Origin: an uncultured Clostridia bacterium | Lineage (GTDB): Bacteria; Bacillota; Clostridia; Oscillospirales; QAKW01 | NCBI GenBank assembly: GCA_947627315.1 | Contig: CANQVN010000004.1 | Span: 1-43,155, forward strand | Length of the DNA stretch: 43,155 nt | Direction: 5' to 3' | Shown here: piece after piece, positions 9,245 to 39,595 of the stretch | How positions within the stretch are numbered: the first letter of the stretch is position 1 | Layout of the letters: every line of letters starts with the position of its first letter | Made by a program: the position numbers and the translations under genes | Notes under the pieces: model-generated | What the model was told of the DNA's origin: nothing | Databases searched by the model: none | Seen by the model: the letters and a program-made list of their open reading frames with translations, nothing else

Positions 9245-10483
9245 ATGAAAATTGAAAAGGAAAGCCTGAGCTTTTACCCCGCGCACACGCTTGAATACCA
9301 GCTCGCGCGATATAAGCGCGCGGTATCGGATTATAGGGCGGAGTTTGGCAAAGACCCGAAGTATGCGTTCAGCACTCCCGGCAGGAGCGAGATATGCGGC
9401 AACCATACCGACCATAACCTCGGAAAGGCTGTCGGCGCGGCAATAGACCTTGATATTATCGCGCTCGTATCCCCGCGCGACGATAACAGGATAATAATAA
9501 GATCAAACGGGTTTTCCGATATCGATATCGACGTCTCAAGGCTTGATATAAATCCCGCGGAAACCGGCAAATCGCCGTCGCTTGTGAGGGGCGTATGCCG
9601 CAGACTTTCCGATATGGGCTGTAAAATCGGCGGGTTTGACGCATACACTCAAAACGATTTGCCGCGAGGCGGCGGGCTCAGCTCGTCCGCCGCGTTCGGG
9701 GTGCAAATCGCGTTTATTATAAGCCGCCTTTTCGGAAACGGCAGGATAGGCGCGTCGGAGCAGGCGGATGCGGCGCACTATGCGGAAAACATCTATTTCG
9801 GCAAAGGCTCGGGACTTCTCGACCAGCTCTGCTGTGCGTTCGGCGGCGCGATATCCATTGATTTTGAAAATAAAGCGAAGCCGAAAATAGAGCGGCTGCC
9901 GTTTGACCTTTCAAAAAGCGGCTGCACTATGATAATCACCGATACTCACAGCAGCCATTCCGACCTGTCGGGCGACTACGACGCGATAAAGGCGGATATG
10001 CAGGCGGTATCTGCGGCATTCGGGAAAAATTATCTGCGGCAGGTGAGCTATGCCGAGTTTTACGAAAGTCTGCCGCGCCTGAAAAATGAGCTTTCCGAGC
10101 GGGCGATAGTCCGCGCGTTCCACTATTTTGATGAAAACGACAACGTCGCCGCGCTGTCAAGGTCGTTAAAGGACGGCGACTTTGAAAAGTTTTTCGGTAT
10201 TGTAAACCGCTCGGGCGGATCGTCCTTTCGCTATCTGCAAAATATTTACTCCGATAAAACGCCCGAAAGCCAAGGCGTGACGCTGGCTTTGTGCCTGTCC
10301 GAGCATATTCTTGCCGGCAGGGGCGCCGTCCGTGTGCATGGCGGCGGGTTTGGCGGCACGATTCAGGCGTATGTGCCAAACGATGCGACAGCCGCCTACA
10401 TAGAAAAGATGGAAAGCGTTTTCGGCGCGGGCAGCTGCCATAAGCTCACTATACGAAATCAGGGACCTGTGAGGGTTATATAA
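9245..10483 (+). CDS. galK: Galactokinase
   Basis: PGRSEICGNHTDHNLGKAV, DLPRGGGLSSSAAFGVQIA, GAVRVHGGGFGGTIQAYV; SD agggggcgg before ATG 9245. Confidence 0.93.
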   Translation: MKIEKESLSFYPAHTLEYQLARYKRAVSDYRAEFGKDPKYAFSTPGRSEICGNHTDHNLGKAVGAAIDLDIIALVSPRDDNRIIIRSNGFSDIDIDVSRLDINPAETGKSPSLVRGVCRRLSDMGCKIGGFDAYTQNDLPRGGGLSSSAAFGVQIAFIISRLFGNGRIGASEQADAAHYAENIYFGKGSGLLDQLCCAFGGAISIDFENKAKPKIERLPFDLSKSGCTMIITDTHSSHSDLSGDYDAIKADMQAVSAAFGKNYLRQVSYAEFYESLPRLKNELSERAIVRAFHYFDENDNVAALSRSLKDGDFEKFFGIVNRSGGSSFRYLQNIYSDKTPESQGVTLALCLSEHILAGRGAVRVHGGGFGGTIQAYVPNDATAAYIEKMESVFGAGSCHKLTIRNQGPVRVI

Positions 10484-10506
10484 AAACGGGGCGATAGCCT
10501 CCGTTT

Positions 10507-11199
10507 TTATATTTTCATAATTTTTCTTGCCCGCTCAACGTCGTCGCCGGTTGCCGCGCGCACGCCCTCCAGCGGGTAGGGGGACTTCCATTTGTGCCGT
10601 CCCAATGTGTGATAAGGCAAAATCTCCGCTTTTTTCACGCTTTTAAGCCCGCGGATAAACTCGCCCAGCCGCCTCAGCTCGTCGTCGCTTTCATATCCCG
10701 GCACCAGAACGTGGCGTATCCATAAAGGCTTCCCGTTTTCGGCAAGCGCTTTTGCAAATTCCAAAATATTGTCGTTGCCGTACCCTGTAAGGCTTTTATG
10801 CTTTACAGGGTCGATGTGTTTTATGTCCAAAATCACAAGGTCGCACGTCTCCAGCATCGCCGCTATTTTATCGTCACGCGGGTCGTATGGCTGGGCGGAC
10901 GTGTCAAGCGCGGTGTTAAACCCGCGCTTTTTTGCAAGCGCGAAAAGCTCACGCACAAACTCGGGCTGAAGCATAGGCTCGCCGCCGCTTGCGGTAATCC
11001 CGCCGCAAAAATCGCGGTACTCCTCCGCCTGCGCTATAAGCGCCTCAGCGCTTGTTTTTTTGCCGCCGCAAAGCTCCCGGCTGTCGGGGTTGTGACAGTA
11101 TAAGCAGCGCATCCTGCATCCCTGCAAAAATACGACAAACCGCAGCCCGGGACCGTCCGCCGCGCCGAAGCTTTCTGTTGAGTGAACTCGCCCTTCCAC
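10507..11199 (-). CDS. pflA: Pyruvate formate-lyase-activating enzyme (radical SAM)
   Basis: GCRMRCLYCHNPD CxxxCxxC motif; adjacent to pflB. Confidence 0.95.
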   Translation of the reverse strand: MEGRVHSTESFGAADGPGLRFVVFLQGCRMRCLYCHNPDSRELCGGKKTSAEALIAQAEEYRDFCGGITASGGEPMLQPEFVRELFALAKKRGFNTALDTSAQPYDPRDDKIAAMLETCDLVILDIKHIDPVKHKSLTGYGNDNILEFAKALAENGKPLWIRHVLVPGYESDDELRRLGEFIRGLKSVKKAEILPYHTLGRHKWKSPYPLEGVRAATGDDVERARKIMKI

Positions 11200-11200
11200 G

Positions 11201-13444
11201 CTACAGAACCGTATGCGCCGAGCGAGCTATAACGTCGAGCTGCTGCTCGCGTGTAAGGGCGATAAACTTTACAGCGTACCCCGAAACCCGAATGGTAAAG
11301 TTTGAGTATTCCTCCTTTTCGGGATGCTCCATCGCGTCTTTAAGCTTGTCGACGCCAAACACGTTTACGTTCAGGTGATGCGCACCGCGCTTAAAATATG
11401 CGTCGAGCAGGGCTACAAGGTTGTCCTTCCGCTCGTTATCGCTGTTGCCGAGCGCGGAGGGCGAGATTGTCTGCGTGTTTGAAATGCCGTCCAGCGCGTA
11501 GCTGTATTTGAGCTTTGCGACAGAGCAGAGCGAGGCGATAAGTCCGTGCTTTTCCGCGCCGTATGACGGGTTTGCTCCGGGCGAGAGCGGCTCGCCCTCC
11601 CGTCTGCCGTCCGGCAGGTTGCCCGTCGCCTTGCCGTAAACGACGTTTGACGTTATCGTGAGGATTGATGTGGTAGGCTCGGCTCCGCGGTAGGTCGCAT
11701 ACCGCCGTATCTTTCCGATAAAGGTTTTCAGCACCCACCGCGCGATGTCGTCCGCGCGGTCGTCGTTGTTGCCGTAGCGCGGAAATTCGCCATCAATCCC
11801 GTAGTCGACGGCAATGCCGTTTTCGTCACGAATCGGGCGCACCCTTGCGTATTTTATAGCGGAAAGCGAGTCGACGACGTGCGAAAAACCGGCGATGCCT
11901 GTGGCAAAGGTGCGCTTGAGATCGGTGTCGATAAGCGCCATCTGCGCCGCCTCGTAGTTATATCTGTCGTGCATATAGTGAATCACGTTGAGCGTGTTGA
12001 CGTAAAGCCCTGCAAGCCAGTCCATCATCTGCTCAAACTTGCCGAGTGCCTCGTCAAAATCCAATACGTCGCTTGTCACCCTCTCGAAAAGCGGGGAGAC
12101 CTGCTGCTTTGTTCTCTCGTCCACGCCGCCGTTTATCGCGTACAGCAGGCACTTGGCAAGGTTTGCCCTCGCGCCGAAAAACTGCATCTCCTTGCCAGTC
12201 TGCGTGGCGGACACGCAGCAGCAGATGGAGTAATCGTCGCCCCAGACCGGGCGCATCACACCGTCGTTTTCGTACTGTATGGAGCTTGTATCGACCGAGA
12301 TTTTGGCGGCGTATTTCTTGAATTTCTCCGGCAGACGGCGGGAGTACAACACCGTGAGGTTAGGCTCGGGCGATGGACCCATATTTTCAAGCGTGTGTAA
12401 AAACCTGAAATCGGTCTTTGTCACCATATGCCTGCCGTCGCTTCCCATCCCGGCAACCGACAGCGTCGCCCACACCGGATCGCCCGAAAACAGCTCGTTG
12501 TAGCTCGGTATCCGCGCAAATTTCACCATCCGGCACTTTAATACAAAGTGGTCGATAAGCTCCTGCGCCTCGCTCTCGGTCAGCGTTCCGCGCTCCAAAT
12601 CCCGCGTGACGTATATGTCGATAAAAGCCGACACCCTGCCGACGCTCATCGCCGCGCCGTTTTGCGTCTTAATCGCGGCAAGATAGCCGAAATACAGCCA
12701 CTGCACCGCCTCCTTCGCGTTTCCGGCGGGGTAGGATATGTCAAAGCCGTAGATTTTCGCCATCTTTTTCATCTCGCCCAGCGCGCGTATCTGCATTGCG
12801 ACCTCCTGCCGCAGCCGTATCCGCTCGTCGTTGGGCGTGCCGCGCTCCAGCCCGCGCAGGTCGCGCTTTTTTTGCTCGATTAAAAAGTCTATCCCGTACA
12901 GCGCGACCCGCCTGTAATCGCCGACAATGCGCCCGCGCCCGTAAGTGTCCGGCAGTCCTGTTATTATCTTGTTGTGGCGCGCAAGGCGCATCTCGGGCGT
13001 ATATGTGTCAAACACCGCCTGGTTGTGCGTCGTCCTGTACTCGGTGAATATCTTTTCAAGCACGCCGCTCGGCTCGTAGCCGTAGCTGCGGCAGGCCTGA
13101 CACGCCGTCTTTATCCCGCCAAACGGCATAAACGCCCGCTTTAACGGTTTGTCCGTCTGAAGCCCCACGATCTGCTCATCCGCTTTTGAGAGATAACCCG
13201 CCGCGTGGGACGTCATGGTAGACACCACCTCGGTGTCCATGTCCAAAACGCCGCCGCGGGCGCGCTCTTCCTTTTGCAGGTCGCTCAGCTTGCCCCACAG
13301 CCGCTTTGTCGCCGTCGTCGGTCCGCATAAAAAGCTCTCGTCGCCGTCGTAAGGGGTGTAGTTGTCCTGTATGAACTGGCGCACGTCTATTTCGTTTTTC
13401 CACACAGAACCGCTAAAGCCCTGCCACTGTGCCTTGTCTGCCAT
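11201..13444 (-). CDS. pflB: Formate C-acetyltransferase (pyruvate formate-lyase)
   Basis: [26 protein letters not shown] and glycyl radical site [10 protein letters not shown]. Confidence 0.96.
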
Positions 13445-13649
13445 TTTTGTCTCCCAAATGTAGTGTTAGTTAGATTATACCACACAATTTACAAATTTCA
13501 TCATTTAATGATAACTTTAAGCGTAGAATTTTCTCGCCAAAAACATACTATCTATTGTATATATTAACAAATTATATACCCATATATAGATTTTGCATAT
13601 TTTGATTTGCCTTTGTCAATAATAAAATCAAACCGAAAGGAGACAGAAA

Positions 13650-14105
13650 ATGGAACTCAGTACCAAAGAAAAAGAATTGCTTAAAGACCTGAAGGATCAG
13701 GAAAAGCTCTGTATCGAAAAATACGAGCGCTACGCGTCCGGCACTTGCAGCGAGGAGCTTTGCTCGCTTTTCAACTCGATGGCGAAAACGGAGCGTGAGC
13801 ATCACAAGACCATTGTCAATATGATGGACGGCAAGGTGGAGGACGCGCCCGCGACGATATCCAATTCCAACAACTGCGACTGCGGCTGCTGTAACTATTC
13901 GGACGAGGAGAGCCGCCAGAACGACGCGTTTATGTGCAAGGATATGCTTGCGACCGAAAAGCACGCCTCCGCGCTTTACGACACCTGTGTGTTTGAGTTT
14001 ACAAACCCGCAGGCAAGGAAAATGCTCAGCCATATTCAGGACGAGGAGCAGCAGCACGGCGAACAGCTTTACACCTTTATGTCAAATAACAATATGATAG
14101 GCTGA
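13650..14105 (+). CDS. Ferritin-like / coat-F-like protein with Cys-rich insert
   Basis: 151 aa helical, E..H and E..QH motifs; central NCDCGCC; SD aaaggaga. Confidence 0.65.
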   Translation: MELSTKEKELLKDLKDQEKLCIEKYERYASGTCSEELCSLFNSMAKTEREHHKTIVNMMDGKVEDAPATISNSNNCDCGCCNYSDEESRQNDAFMCKDMLATEKHASALYDTCVFEFTNPQARKMLSHIQDEEQQHGEQLYTFMSNNNMIG

Positions 14106-33679: not shown

Positions 33680-33766
33680 GCGGGTATGGCGGAATTGGCA
33701 GACGCGCTAGATTCAGGTTCTAGTGGTAGCAATACTGTACAGGTTCAAGTCCTGCTACCCGCACCA
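33680..33766 (+). tRNA. tRNA-Leu (CAG)
   Basis: GCGGGTA...CTAGA-TTCAGGT-TCTAG...long variable arm...TACCCGC-ACCA. Confidence 0.94.
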
Positions 33767-34213: not shown

Positions 34214-34242
34214 TTGACAAATGGCAAATATGGATATAAAAT
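34214..34242 (+). promoter_or_regulatory. Promoter of surface-protein operon
   Basis: TTGACA-N17-TAAAAT. Confidence 0.7.
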
Positions 34243-34297
34243 TAAAGATGTATAGGACCCAACTATGCACCAAAAATTTACAAAGGAGTTGAACACA

Positions 34298-37200
34298 ATG
34301 AGCAAAAATTCAAAGCGCATTATATCGATAGTGATTTCGGCGTTGATGCTGATTTCACTCCTGTCGGTGTTCTGCGTGCCGACTTTCGCGGAGCCTGAAG
34401 CTGTGTCGTTTGCGGAAAATTTCCCCGACACGGAGATTGATGGCTCGGACGACGGAACGGGTCAGCCGGTAAAACTCACAAAGGATGCCGTTCTTATGGT
34501 TGACCCTGCTAAAGGAGCGCAGTATGAGAAGACCGACGCGTCAAACGGTGATTTACACGAGAAGATAGAGGTCACCATTAACGGTACGCTGTACTATTTT
34601 GAGTACGGTGTAAACGCTTTCATTGGTGACGGCACAGCGTATAATGGACTCGCAAGTACTGACCAGCTAATTAAAAAAATGTATAAGGGCGGTGGTACTC
34701 CGCAGGTTGTTATAGCTGAATGGTCTAATACCACAACGGCGCTTCAGATTAAAACACCTGTTAATCTCTTTGGTCCCAACTTCAATACCAAGCCTTACAC
34801 AAACAAGGGCGGAGTTTGGCAGGAAAACACAGCTTATAACGAAAATAGCGTAACCATCGGCTTTGTCGCGGCTAACGATAAAACCACGACAGGCAATTTT
34901 GGTCTTTACGGGCTTACAATCGACGGTTATGTTGCCGCCAACTCTGTATCTGGAGCGGGACTTAACGTTTCGGTTCAGAACTGTGTGATTAACCAGGATA
35001 AATTCCCGACGATAAAAGGGATATACATTAACGCCAGTAAAGATCATATATACAATCTTTTCAACATCGGCGGCGGTAAAAAAGCGCCCGGCGGTACTCT
35101 TCAAAGTACTGCCGCGAACAATGACAAGTTGATTGTTAAAGATACTTACATTAAAAAAGTAATTGTACCTTGGAAAGATGACGCGTATAAGCCGGAGAAC
35201 GCATATGAAGATGAGACGATAAGACTTATCGGCAACTACGTATACGACAACGTTACGTTTGACGGTCTGTGGATTCCCGAGGAAGTGGGCAAACACATGT
35301 CTGCGTCGACAGCCACCCTCAAAAACAACTCGCCGGAGTTCCACTTCACCGTTAAAAACAGCAATATAGGCGGATTTTTGCCGCAGGCGGACGGTCACAA
35401 CGGTATGTTCTATTTCGATTCAACGGCGGATGAGGTCGCTCCCGAGTTTACCGACAGAACCGTTGAATTTTCCAACAACGTTTTCACCAACGTCTACGGC
35501 AACTCTGACAAAGACGTATTTGCCTTTGCGGATGCTTCGGTATTCACAGGCATAACCATTAAAGACAACACCTTTACATTTGGCGAAGCGGCTGCCGATA
35601 TGATTGATTTCGGAGCTGCCACCGAGAATAGTCAGGTTACCGACGTTACCGTCACCGGCAACGTTATCAACGGACTTGGCGGCAAATGGAGCAGCAACGA
35701 ACAGCTCCCGAACGGTACGTTCACATTTGACAAAAACTACGTCTGTGAAGCAATACCGGAAGTAACGAGCGGCAGGATAGAAGACGGCATTTTCCCCGAA
35801 TTCAGCGGAGAGACCGCCATCAACAACGGCTATCGTGCCTACGACTACACTGAAAAGGAATTTTCACAGTACAGCGCGGAGCTTAAAGAAGTCAAGGTCG
35901 GCGAAGTTGCCGCTTTACCTCTTCTTGGCGAGGAAAACACTTATACAATAGATATCAGCGAAAATGCGGACGAGACCGCGCGGGAAATAACCGCCGCGCC
36001 TTATGACACCCGCGAGGGTCACGTCACGGTGCAGATAGACGGACAGGACTCCGCGACGGTAGCCGGTGATATTTGCAAATACGGCGAAAATGGCAAAAGC
36101 AACACAATTACCCTAACCAACAAATGCGAATATGAGGGCAATACCAAAACCTACACTCTCAAGGTGACAAAGGCTCACAGCTGGGGCGAGCCTGTAATCG
36201 AACAGCCCGACTGTACAAAGCCGGGTACGCGGAGCCAGACCTGCACTGCCTGCGGGGAGAGCAACCCTGCGGTTGACAACCCAACTGTTCCCCAAAAAGA
36301 CGCTCACAACTGGAGCAATTGGGAAGACGCAGGCGACGGCACGCATGAAAAGCGCAAATGTCAAAACGAGCCCTGCGAGCAGACAGAGCAGAGACTGAAA
36401 GGCGAAAATATTGCCATTACGCCGTCTCTCACCCTTTACGACAACCTTAACGTCAATTTCAAGGTGACAAAATCTCAGCTTACGGGCTATGAAAACGAAG
36501 GCGACATAAAGCTCAAAGTCACAATGAACGGCGAAACGCAGGAGATTGAAGCAAAAGAGGGTACTACCAACCTGCTGTCGGGCGATGCAAACGAGCCCGC
36601 CTGGGTGTTCACCTTCGAGGGAATTGCTCCCGACAAGTTTGGAGATGAAATCACAGCAAAGCTCTATGCAGGCGAAAAAGAGCTTACCGGGAAAACGTAC
36701 AGCGTTAAAGAATACTGCAAAAATATGCTGGAAAATCCCCAGGTTACCGAAAACGAAGCGCTTTACAAGGTGCTTGTCGACCTTTTGAACTACGGAGCCG
36801 CGGCACAGGAATACAAGGACTACAAGCCGGACGCGCTTGTAAACGGCGATCTTACCGGCGAGCAAAAACAGCATGGCACGCAGCAAGACGTCACACCCGT
36901 CGATGCGCTGAATATCGAAAACAAAGACGATGCAAGTCACACTGTACCGTGGCTTGGCGCAGGTCTCAGCCTTGGCAGCACGATAGCGCTGCGTTTCACG
37001 GTGAGAGTCGAGGAGGAAGGTATTACCGACCCGAACAGTGAGCTTAGCGTTGCGATTAACGGATTGAATGGCTGCACCCACGAATTTGTCAAGAACGAAA
37101 GCAGCTCCGACAATCGCTACTACCTCTATATCAGAGGTATTGCCGCAAATCAGATGAGCAAGGAGTTTACGGTTGTAATAAGCAAAGACGGCAGCCCCGT

Positions 37201-37342
37201 AAGCGGAAAGCTTACCTACACCGTCGACAGCTACGCCGCAGAGGTAGCAAAGGACGGTAAAGCCGATAAAGAGCTTAAAGACTTTACGCAGGCTATGGTA
37301 AACTACGGTCATTCGGTGGCGGAGTATCATCCCGCAAACTAA
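34298..37342 (+). CDS. Secreted beta-helix-like surface protein with duplicated C-terminal domain
   Basis: Signal peptide MSKNSKRIISIVISALMLISLLSVFCVPTFAEPE; N/V/T-rich repeats (VTVTGNVINGL); Cys cluster CTKPGTRSQTCTACG; SD aaaggag before ATG 34298 rather than listed 34265. Confidence 0.8.
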   Translation: MSKNSKRIISIVISALMLISLLSVFCVPTFAEPEAVSFAENFPDTEIDGSDDGTGQPVKLTKDAVLMVDPAKGAQYEKTDASNGDLHEKIEVTINGTLYYFEYGVNAFIGDGTAYNGLASTDQLIKKMYKGGGTPQVVIAEWSNTTTALQIKTPVNLFGPNFNTKPYTNKGGVWQENTAYNENSVTIGFVAANDKTTTGNFGLYGLTIDGYVAANSVSGAGLNVSVQNCVINQDKFPTIKGIYINASKDHIYNLFNIGGGKKAPGGTLQSTAANNDKLIVKDTYIKKVIVPWKDDAYKPENAYEDETIRLIGNYVYDNVTFDGLWIPEEVGKHMSASTATLKNNSPEFHFTVKNSNIGGFLPQADGHNGMFYFDSTADEVAPEFTDRTVEFSNNVFTNVYGNSDKDVFAFADASVFTGITIKDNTFTFGEAAADMIDFGAATENSQVTDVTVTGNVINGLGGKWSSNEQLPNGTFTFDKNYVCEAIPEVTSGRIEDGIFPEFSGETAINNGYRAYDYTEKEFSQYSAELKEVKVGEVAALPLLGEENTYTIDISENADETAREITAAPYDTREGHVTVQIDGQDSATVAGDICKYGENGKSNTITLTNKCEYEGNTKTYTLKVTKAHSWGEPVIEQPDCTKPGTRSQTCTACGESNPAVDNPTVPQKDAHNWSNWEDAGDGTHEKRKCQNEPCEQTEQRLKGENIAITPSLTLYDNLNVNFKVTKSQLTGYENEGDIKLKVTMNGETQEIEAKEGTTNLLSGDANEPAWVFTFEGIAPDKFGDEITAKLYAGEKELTGKTYSVKEYCKNMLENPQVTENEALYKVLVDLLNYGAAAQEYKDYKPDALVNGDLTGEQKQHGTQQDVTPVDALNIENKDDASHTVPWLGAGLSLGSTIALRFTVRVEEEGITDPNSELSVAINGLNGCTHEFVKNESSSDNRYYLYIRGIAANQMSKEFTVVISKDGSPVSGKLTYTVDSYAAEVAKDGKADKELKDFTQAMVNYGHSVAEYHPAN

Positions 37343-37355
37343 GGAGGAATAAGCT

Positions 37356-37508
37356 ATGAAAGAACAGTTTACAGAACCGAGCGCGGAAATCGTGAAATTT
37401 TCACGGCAGGACATAGTGACGGCAAGCGCGTTTATCGACGAGGACGATTCTTCTAATCAGAGCGGTTTTTACACTCCGACAGTTGGCGGAGACGCTTGGG
37501 AGTCATAA
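37356..37508 (+). CDS. 50-aa small protein of unknown function (absent from ORF track)
   Basis: MKEQFTEPSAEIVKFSRQDIVTASAFIDEDDSSNQSGFYTPTVGGDAWES*; SD aaggagg 8 nt upstream; 13 nt after upstream stop. Confidence 0.75.
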   Translation: MKEQFTEPSAEIVKFSRQDIVTASAFIDEDDSSNQSGFYTPTVGGDAWES

Positions 37509-37540: not shown

Positions 37541-37578
37541 GCGTCGGAGCAAAGAAAGCTTTGCTCCGACGCTTTTTT
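37541..37578 (+). terminator. Strong terminator
   Basis: GCGTCGGAGCAAAG-AAAG-CTTTGCTCCGACGC-TTTTTT, 14-bp perfect stem. Confidence 0.93.
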
Positions 37579-37712: not shown

Positions 37713-38606
37713 TTATTTAAAATCCGCAAGGCTCCACGAAACGCCGCTGTTTTCCGACGGATTGAAATCGGAAGCGCCTGCACCCTTCGCGCCGATAAAA
37801 CGAAGGAAATTTTCCGCGTAGATTAGCTTGCGGATTGAATCGGGCACCTTAAATTTGTCATAAAGGCTGTTGTCGCGTTGTATGATGTCGAGTACCCGGC
37901 TGCTGCAGCCATACGTCGACGTGTAGCTGTCCGTGCCGAACATAATGTTGTGCGGCACGTCATAACCGATAAAGAACAGCTTATAAATCAGATCCTCCCG
38001 GTAAATTGCCGGCGTACCCGGCGTCAGGTCAAAAAACATTTCACAGCTTATTTCCGGATTGATTTTGTACGCCCTTAAAAATTTTCCGTACATAGCGATG
38101 CACTCGTCATGCCAGGGCCATGAACAGTGCCCCATGGAAAAGCGCAGATTTGGAATGGTAATCAGCGATTCCCAGTTTACGGGTTTGTTGTACTGCGAGG
38201 AAAACGCGCCGTTCCAGATAATGCCGGAATGGAAAATCACAGGCTTTTTCAGCTCGGCGATGACGCGCAGCGCCCGCATAACCCTTTCGTCGTAAACGTA
38301 ATAGTTGTCGCAGATCATTTTATATCCCGTGATTCCGCGAGCCGCGGCGTCGCGTATCCGACTCTCGAGCTCCGGCTCGTCCGGGTGAATCCAAAGTACG
38401 GGGAACAGCCGTCCCTCATAGCCCCGCGTCCAGGCAAGTACGTTTTCGATTCGTTGCTCGTAGGTCGCATTCCCGTCGCAGGATTCAAGCGGTTCGGGCG
38501 AAAGCACCGCGCCGCCATATATGCCGACCGACTCCATACGATAAATCAGCTCGTCGGCATTCGGTTCACCGCTGTCCGCGTGAATGTGCATATCATAAAT
38601 TTTCAT
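37713..38606 (-). CDS. Amidohydrolase-like TIM-barrel metal-dependent hydrolase
   Basis: MKIYDMHIHADSGEPNADELI, PVIFHSGIIW, MFGTDSY, YAENFLRF. Confidence 0.85.
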   Translation of the reverse strand: MKIYDMHIHADSGEPNADELIYRMESVGIYGGAVLSPEPLESCDGNATYEQRIENVLAWTRGYEGRLFPVLWIHPDEPELESRIRDAAARGITGYKMICDNYYVYDERVMRALRVIAELKKPVIFHSGIIWNGAFSSQYNKPVNWESLITIPNLRFSMGHCSWPWHDECIAMYGKFLRAYKINPEISCEMFFDLTPGTPAIYREDLIYKLFFIGYDVPHNIMFGTDSYTSTYGCSSRVLDIIQRDNSLYDKFKVPDSIRKLIYAENFLRFIGAKGAGASDFNPSENSGVSWSLADFK

Positions 38607-39421
38607 AAGCTTCCATCCTCTCTCCCGGATGCGCCCACAGAGCCTGAGCCTTCAAAGCGCGTCTTGTCAATCACGCCGTAGCCGTCGTGCAGCTTTCCGC
38701 CGCTTTCTTTATATTCCCGGATTTTCCGCTGCAAGCCGCTTTCCTTTGTTTTGTCCGGGTTCAGCTCAAACAAATACCGCAGCGCCGAATCCGACTCCTT
38801 ATAGTAAAAAATCGTAAAATCAGACCGGAATTTTAATATGTTGGATTCCGGTTTTAAAAATTCGCGAAGCTGATCCCCCAAAAGCCAGGAAAAACAGGTG
38901 AAATACCTATATGAATATTCCGGGAAATAGGTCGTAAAAAAGGCGATTGCCTGTCGGTAGGAGCGCAGACAGTCCTCGTGAATGAGCGGCTCTCCCTGCG
39001 GGATATGTACCTCCACAATCGGCTCTCCGACCGGAATCCCCAGCGGCTCGCACGGTACTCTCAGCTTTCCTTTGCGAAATTGCAGCCGACCCAGCCGAAA
39101 GATTTCCATATTAAAATGCAGATCCATCCACGCAGTCGAGGTGACGCCGACCCCGCCCGTCACCGTATGGCAGTTTTTCGCCCACAAAACCAGATCGGAC
39201 AGCGTGTCCATCAAAATTTTTCGGTCTATTCCTTTTTCCTCATAGCGCGCCGCCAGTATGTCGCAGCTTGCAAGGTAATTCAAAAGGTTCTCCATCGGTG
39301 TTCGCTCCTCCGCGTTCGGGCACAGCCGCGCAGGATCAAAGCGCGCCGCTGCCTCGGCGACCGTCATATCCCACTCCTTCGGGAACCGTAAAAGCCTGTA
39401 CCATTTCAAAATACTGTCCAT
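38603..39421 (-). CDS. Acyltransferase-like/DUF5596-like protein
   Basis: MDSILKWYRLLRFPKEWD...VEVHIPQGEPLIHEDCLRSYRQAIAFFTTYFPEY...CFSWLL; ATG 39421 with SD ggaagga; translationally coupled to hydrolase. Confidence 0.65.
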   Translation of the reverse strand: MDSILKWYRLLRFPKEWDMTVAEAAARFDPARLCPNAEERTPMENLLNYLASCDILAARYEEKGIDRKILMDTLSDLVLWAKNCHTVTGGVGVTSTAWMDLHFNMEIFRLGRLQFRKGKLRVPCEPLGIPVGEPIVEVHIPQGEPLIHEDCLRSYRQAIAFFTTYFPEYSYRYFTCFSWLLGDQLREFLKPESNILKFRSDFTIFYYKESDSALRYLFELNPDKTKESGLQRKIREYKESGGKLHDGYGVIDKTRFEGSGSVGASGREDGSL

Positions 39422-39595
39422 CGCTTTTCCTTCCTCTCCCGGACGAATTCGCGCCCGCATCGTTTCCATTATACAGGCTTTCTCCGACACTGTCAACTGA
39501 TAAAAACAAAGCAAACGGGAGTAAAAAATCCCGCTTCGGCTTTTCGTTTTCGTATACAGCCTACAGCGTGTTTTGCTAAAAATCCGATTATTTTA

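Follow-up and report, generated by a model that had tools for sequence, protein, structure and literature searches.

The question raised by this locus is what is made, and to what end, from an open reading frame of only 50 amino acids that sits directly behind the gene for a large secreted protein in an uncultured Clostridia bacterium (the 'window' below is the whole stretch of 43,155 nucleotides that was analysed). Three roles had been suggested for its product in an earlier note: a chaperone or assembly factor, a leader-plus-core modified peptide, or a surface partner. The analysis described here favours the second of these; with a probability of roughly 0.8, the reading frame encodes an LPP-like RiPP precursor (LPP, linear polyphosphorylated peptide) that undergoes maturation in trans and is coupled to the secreted protein as its partner. 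A general role in chaperoning or assembly found no support, and a function of the mature peptide as a surface partner is possible.

RiPP precursors are usually looked for beside their enzymes. Most members of the family described below lie away from such enzymes, behind secreted-protein genes, and are easily missed, both because of that distance and because their length falls below what gene annotation usually picks up. No account of the precursor family, or of its pairing with secreted proteins, was found in a search of literature available without subscription, and a text search of the literature with the letters of the core motif returned nothing relevant.

The locus and its secreted partner

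The layout of the gene pair (Table 1) was confirmed in the sequence as it had been described: the secreted-protein gene and the short reading frame are separated by 13 nt, a Shine-Dalgarno sequence (aaggagg) overlaps the stop codon of the former (TAA, 37340-37342) and stands 8 nt from the ATG of the latter, and a terminator with a 14-bp stem follows. The 50-aa protein has no cysteine, no signal peptide and no transmembrane segment. Searches with it against Pfam and NCBIfam gave no match, nor did tblastn against phage records. The promoter-like sequence before the secreted-protein gene is considered weak, because the number of such sites in the region is no higher than expected by chance. A tRNA-Leu gene (cag; 33680-33766) precedes the secreted-protein gene by about 500 nt and may have served as the insertion site of the two-gene unit. 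On the opposite strand downstream (37713-39514) are encoded an amidohydrolase (PF04909) and a GNAT-like acyltransferase (PF18164/PF18082), both probably unrelated.

Table 1. Features of the two-gene unit, in positions of the window
Feature	Position	Strand	Basis
Promoter-like TTGACA-17-TAAAAT before secreted-protein gene	34214..34242	+	consensus scan, 11/12 matches; weak
Partner, 1014-aa secreted protein, Sec-type signal MSKNSKRIISIVISALMLISLLSVFCVPTFA	34298..37342	+	paralogs on contigs C16 and C43 share signal region
Partner C-terminal domain, residues 710-1010	36425..37327	+	iterative profile search; in 31/81 partner proteins
Shine-Dalgarno aaggagg of 50-aa reading frame	37341..37347	+	sequence
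Candidate 50-aa precursor peptide gene, encoding MKEQFTEPSAEIVKFSRQDIVTASAFIDEDDSSNQSGFYTPTVGGDAWES	37356..37508	+	sequence, core-profile relatives
Predicted leader M1-T22	37356..37421	+	family core; LPP/lasso leader comparison (PMC13381572); cleavage point predicted
Predicted core A23-S50 = ASAFIDEDDSSNQSGFYTPTVGGDAWES	37422..37505	+	variable acidic family tail; tail Cys tracks radical SAM; boundary predicted
Ser24, predicted HprK-like kinase site	37425..37427	+	invariance; analogy to S3 of LppA
Intrinsic terminator	37541..37572	+	perfect 14-bp stem, GCGTCGGAGCAAAG-AAAG-CTTTGCTCCGACGC, then TTTTTT

The partner gene contains an alternative ATG at 34265, from which a product of 1025 aa would be made. 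Its description as 'beta-helix-like' was not confirmed: no Pfam family scored above cut-off, and an AlphaFold model of the N-terminal part, computed from the single sequence, was of low confidence (pLDDT 37). The C-terminal ('NYG') domain was modelled as two beta-sandwich plus helix modules (AlphaFold, pLDDT 81.6); a structure search with it returned no close solved structure, only a generic likeness to Ig-like beta-sandwiches with TM scores near 0.2.

Additional copies in the source genome

Elsewhere in the source assembly (149 contigs, 86.5% complete), a 52-aa reading frame that is 55% identical to the 50-aa protein lies on contig C16, 12 nt behind the gene for a 1103-aa paralog of the secreted protein. 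A divergent third copy (MKKEYKTPELEMVLFETENKVMVNGDLDS...) is found on contig C112, 37 nt behind the gene for another secreted protein; it has lost the DIxTxS part of the core. Given the paralogous pair and the additional copy in the same genome, the arrangement in the window is more than a product of chance. The secreted protein has a third paralog, near-identical in its signal region, which is cut off by the edge of contig C43 (L105:3-2648). That edge falls where its precursor would be expected.

A family of short proteins behind secreted-protein genes

A profile built from two source-genome copies identified relatives in 53 of the 394 genomes of the order, and a profile restricted to the core did so in 114 of the 394 (E<=0.05), single genomes holding as many as 10. 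Among 399 genomes sampled from the whole phylum, the core profile matched in 4 (E<=1e-4). The named members come from rumen and gut metagenome-assembled genomes labelled Ruminococcus, Roseburia, Lachnospiraceae, Oscillospiraceae and similar. The pattern scan for members relied on a 4-row core alignment, the 31-row alignment being too diverse, and the start codons of partners and precursors were picked by rule.

The shared core, [YF]xxPxxE[IV][IV]xFxxxD[IV][IV]TxS, is ungapped in the first 31 members that were aligned. Numbered from its final serine (position 0, invariant in 31/31), it has tyrosine or phenylalanine at -19, proline at -16, glutamate at -13, phenylalanine, leucine or tyrosine at -9, near-invariant aspartate (or glutamate) at -5, isoleucine or valine at -4 and -3, and threonine at -2. 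In the window protein the corresponding residues are F5xxP8xA10, E11, F15 and D19-I20-V21-T22. The tails that follow in these 31 members are 9-38 residues long, rich in aspartate and glutamate, and almost free of lysine and arginine. The core is under constraint at the level of protein, with a pN/pS of 0.26 when nearest pairs are pooled, and the proposal that the short reading frame is coding is supported.

In 81 of the 108 distinct members that could be evaluated, a same-strand reading frame ends between -20 and 60 nt upstream. Where that upstream frame was complete (54 cases), its product began with a strongly hydrophobic segment in 49, and 44 of these reached 300 aa or more; ordinary same-strand gene pairs from these loci, taken as a control, showed this combination in 24 of 339 (the assignment as 'secreted' rests on a crude hydrophobicity test rather than on a signal-peptide predictor). 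The impression that homologs with a conserved N-terminal core are found repeatedly in gut Clostridia close to such proteins was upheld, their place being directly behind the secreted-protein gene. The 'NYG' domain of the window's partner, for which a test of co-occurrence had been suggested, is carried by 31 of the 81 partners; the other 50 end differently.

These observations bear on one alternative, that the members of the family stay unmodified inside the cell, act there as chaperones or assembly factors of the secreted protein, and share operons with RiPP enzymes by chance. The close coupling of the genes, and the lack of a signal peptide or transmembrane segment, would suit such a factor. 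Against it, the core stays constant although the C-terminal domains of the partners are unrelated (50/81 lack the shared domain), the tails vary freely and gain cysteines where a radical-SAM enzyme is present, the core matches an RRE-binding leader, and precursors are found inside RRE, peptidase (SpI) and kinase cassettes. This explanation is regarded as very unlikely.

Association with RiPP enzyme cassettes

Evidence for the precursor reading comes from loci in which members of the family are physically linked to sets of modifying enzymes, and such linkage is stronger evidence than co-occurrence. (Domains in L081 and L084 were called with Pfam and NCBIfam; the remaining loci were annotated by profile searches.) Three loci (L046, L051 and L052) present the same order of genes: secreted protein, precursor, lipoprotein, HprK-like kinase, RRE, SpI peptidase, ABC exporter and NTP transferase. 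A fourth (L043) follows this order from the precursor on, and only its partner, at a contig edge, is missing. One variant (L055) comprises secreted protein, precursor, RRE, HprK, SpI and ABC; another (L081) runs secreted protein, precursor, lipoprotein, second precursor, HprK, RRE, SpI, ABC and NTP. In all, precursors were additionally found in the cassettes of L055, L059, L081/L013, L083, L084, L064, L049 and L134. In L081 the partner (9964-13938, minus strand) is secreted, is 1324 aa long and contains a transglutaminase-like domain (PF01841).

The RRE of the complete loci is a discrete PqqD-like protein and the exporter an MsbA-like ABC transporter, which recurs in many cassettes. The kinase gives weak matches to Hpr_kinase_C and ScmC and conserves the P-loop (GTGKST); the peptidase is SipW-like, with weak matches to TIGR02228 and SipW below cut-off and conserved serine and histidine motifs. 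The short gene and its secreted partner had been viewed as a dedicated two-gene operon. The unit itself stands, as part of something larger: in complete loci it forms the front end of an RRE, kinase, peptidase and exporter operon, and so is not an isolated, dedicated pair.

At the level of whole genomes, a discrete RRE (PF05402) was detected in 39 of 41 family-positive genomes (and went undetected in the other 2) versus 23 of 119 family-negative genomes (p=1e-18), a comparison in which the positive genomes had been selected for strong matches, phylogeny accounts for part of the association, and the cut-off (E<=1e-8) was set after the data had been seen, in order to exclude RRE-like parts of long proteins. 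The negative genomes with an RRE at this cut-off numbered 6/39 in a first set and 17/80 in a second. Within the families f17, f19, f20 and f23, the RRE was present in 29 of 30 positive and 10 of 24 negative genomes (p=7e-6). The NTP transferase (PF14907) was similarly found in 38/41 family-positive versus 11/39 family-negative genomes.

Four cassettes (L064, L084, L086 and L134) include a radical-SAM/SPASM maturase. All six precursors in these loci have a cysteine in the tail, versus 3 of 108 elsewhere (p=3e-8), the six being not fully independent in that they derive from four loci. Such a correspondence between tail cysteines and an adjacent radical-SAM enzyme is what one would expect of a tail on which that enzyme acts, and these cassettes apparently form a thioether or otherwise cysteine-modified sub-branch. 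In this they are like radical SAM RiPPs with SPASM maturases (for example, the TIGR04463 and Clo7bot families); unlike those systems, the window precursor has no cysteine and most loci have no maturase.

Relationship to LPP and lasso peptides

The closest known system is that of the LPPs (lppAKBSDN in Paenibacillus alginolyticus), published examples of which are from Bacilli, with no mention of Clostridia (PMC13381572). Their core genes encode an HprK-like kinase, a discrete RRE, a SipW-like peptidase, an MsbA-like exporter and an NTP transferase (PMC13381572). The kinase phosphorylates Ser3 of the core (S3 of LppA), and the SpI peptidase, aided by the RRE, cuts after a threonine (PMC13381572). 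The leader motif is YxxPxVLxHQxIxFETxxS, in which YxxP binds the RRE; more generally, the discrete RREs of lasso and LPP systems bind [Y/W]xxPx[L/V/I/F/A] (PMC13381572).

The present family resembles the LPPs in its set of enzymes, with no cyclase seen in the cassettes examined, and in its short precursors with a conserved YxxP leader, a conserved serine at the junction of leader and core, and a variable core. It differs in the leader itself: only the YxxPx[hydrophobic] part and a serine near the junction are held in common, HQxIxFET is absent, with both HQ and the FET spacing differing, the spacing from tyrosine to serine is one residue longer, and the window leader has phenylalanine instead of tyrosine at the first position of the motif. 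It also differs in that its precursors trail secreted-protein genes, most of them scattered at sites away from the cassette, and in that some cassettes add a radical-SAM maturase and a lipoprotein. Because the published LPP precursor motif is not matched, the family is classed as a variant of the LPPs and not as a member; it shares the enzymes of the LPP system and appears to work like it. The LppA junction reads F-3, E-2, T-1 | A1 Q2 S3 (PMC13381572), and by analogy that of the family would read [IV]-3 [IV]-2 T-1 | x1 S2.

The YxxPx[hydrophobic] motif and the threonine before the core also resemble lasso leaders (PMC10368454, PMC13381572), and paeninodin-like and other phosphorylated lasso peptides have, like this family, a [W/Y]xxP leader, a discrete RRE, an HprK-like kinase and an NTP transferase. 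Unlike them, the family shows no B2 peptidase, cyclase or ring acceptor pattern in the genomes and loci examined, and its tails are linear and acidic. The leader peptidase B2 (PF13471) had no match above cut-off in any of the 41 family-positive genomes; many tails (for example, in L018, L027 and L028) have no aspartate or glutamate at core positions 7-9, leaving no consistent ring residue; and no macrolactam cyclase was seen among the cassettes examined. A lasso precursor was thus considered and dropped, the absence of PF13471 largely refuting it, and is held to be extremely improbable.

Proposed maturation of the window precursor

The defining properties of a RiPP precursor (a conserved leader, a variable core, and encoding with modifying enzymes) are all found in the family, with the enzymes for the window copy on other contigs. 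No kinase, RRE, peptidase or NTP transferase gene lies within the window. In the source genome, contig C120 carries an HprK-like kinase followed by an RRE, contig C21 an RRE followed by an SpI peptidase with a second SpI at its start, and contigs C43 and C91 the two copies of the PF14907 NTP transferase; the P-loop of the kinase and the serine and histidine of the peptidase are conserved. Scoring of the source-genome ABC transporters singled out no cassette-type exporter. The ABC transporter on C112, considered as a candidate, scores no better than several others in the genome, and was not counted as part of a cassette, lying about 300 nt from the third copy and behind an inverted repeat. Because the window holds none of these four enzyme genes and they are found on other contigs, its precursor would be matured in trans.

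The same scatter of cassette-type genes over contigs could indicate a degenerate orphan, in which the operon layout was inherited from a full cassette and the satellite copy is no longer processed, as could the position of the window copy outside a cassette and the loss of DIxTxS in the copy on C112. Standing against this are the two source-genome copies that retain the full core, Shine-Dalgarno sequence and coupling, the low pN/pS of the core, its retention in genomes with up to 10 copies, and the persistence of the kinase, RREs, peptidases and NTP transferases in the source genome; degeneration is accordingly judged unlikely.

Returning to the favoured reading of a precursor matured in trans, we infer binding of the leader by an RRE, phosphorylation, a cleavage point, export and a physical link to the partner. 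Partner and precursor would be translated from one transcript, with translational coupling. The precursor is predicted to consist of a leader of about 22 residues with an [YF]xxPx[AILVM] motif, which the RRE would read as F5xxP8xA10, followed by an acidic core that makes up the remaining 28 or so residues. The RRE would hand it to the HprK-like kinase, probably for phosphorylation of the conserved Ser24, and to the SipW-like Ser/His peptidase, by which the leader would be removed, probably after T22. A further group is probably attached by the PF14907 NTP transferase, and an MsbA-like ABC transporter would export the acidic core of 28 residues. Since the pairing with secreted proteins is consistent, the mature peptide is suggested to act outside the cell, most likely together with its secreted partner.

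If this is true, many unannotated small genes of gut and rumen Clostridia gain a pathway, and the role of LPP peptides becomes testable via their secreted partners. A broader and more speculative possibility, held to be rather doubtful, is that one RiPP pathway serves secreted surface proteins genome-wide in Clostridia, each having its own exported modified peptide as a ligand, adaptor or anchor; under that proposal, the tethered lipoprotein and the free peptide of one sublineage look as if they compete for the secreted protein. In eight precursor loci (L013/L081, L042, L043, L046, L049, L051, L052 and L084), the precursor has beside it a lipoprotein or TM-anchored protein of about 140-210 aa. 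These proteins have a low-complexity linker, either acidic or rich in Thr, Pro and Glu, and end in (I/N)ELPFVPxx (ELPIITV in L084); several precursor tails, such as GELPFVPAE and GDTPFVPAEP, are of the same sequence type.
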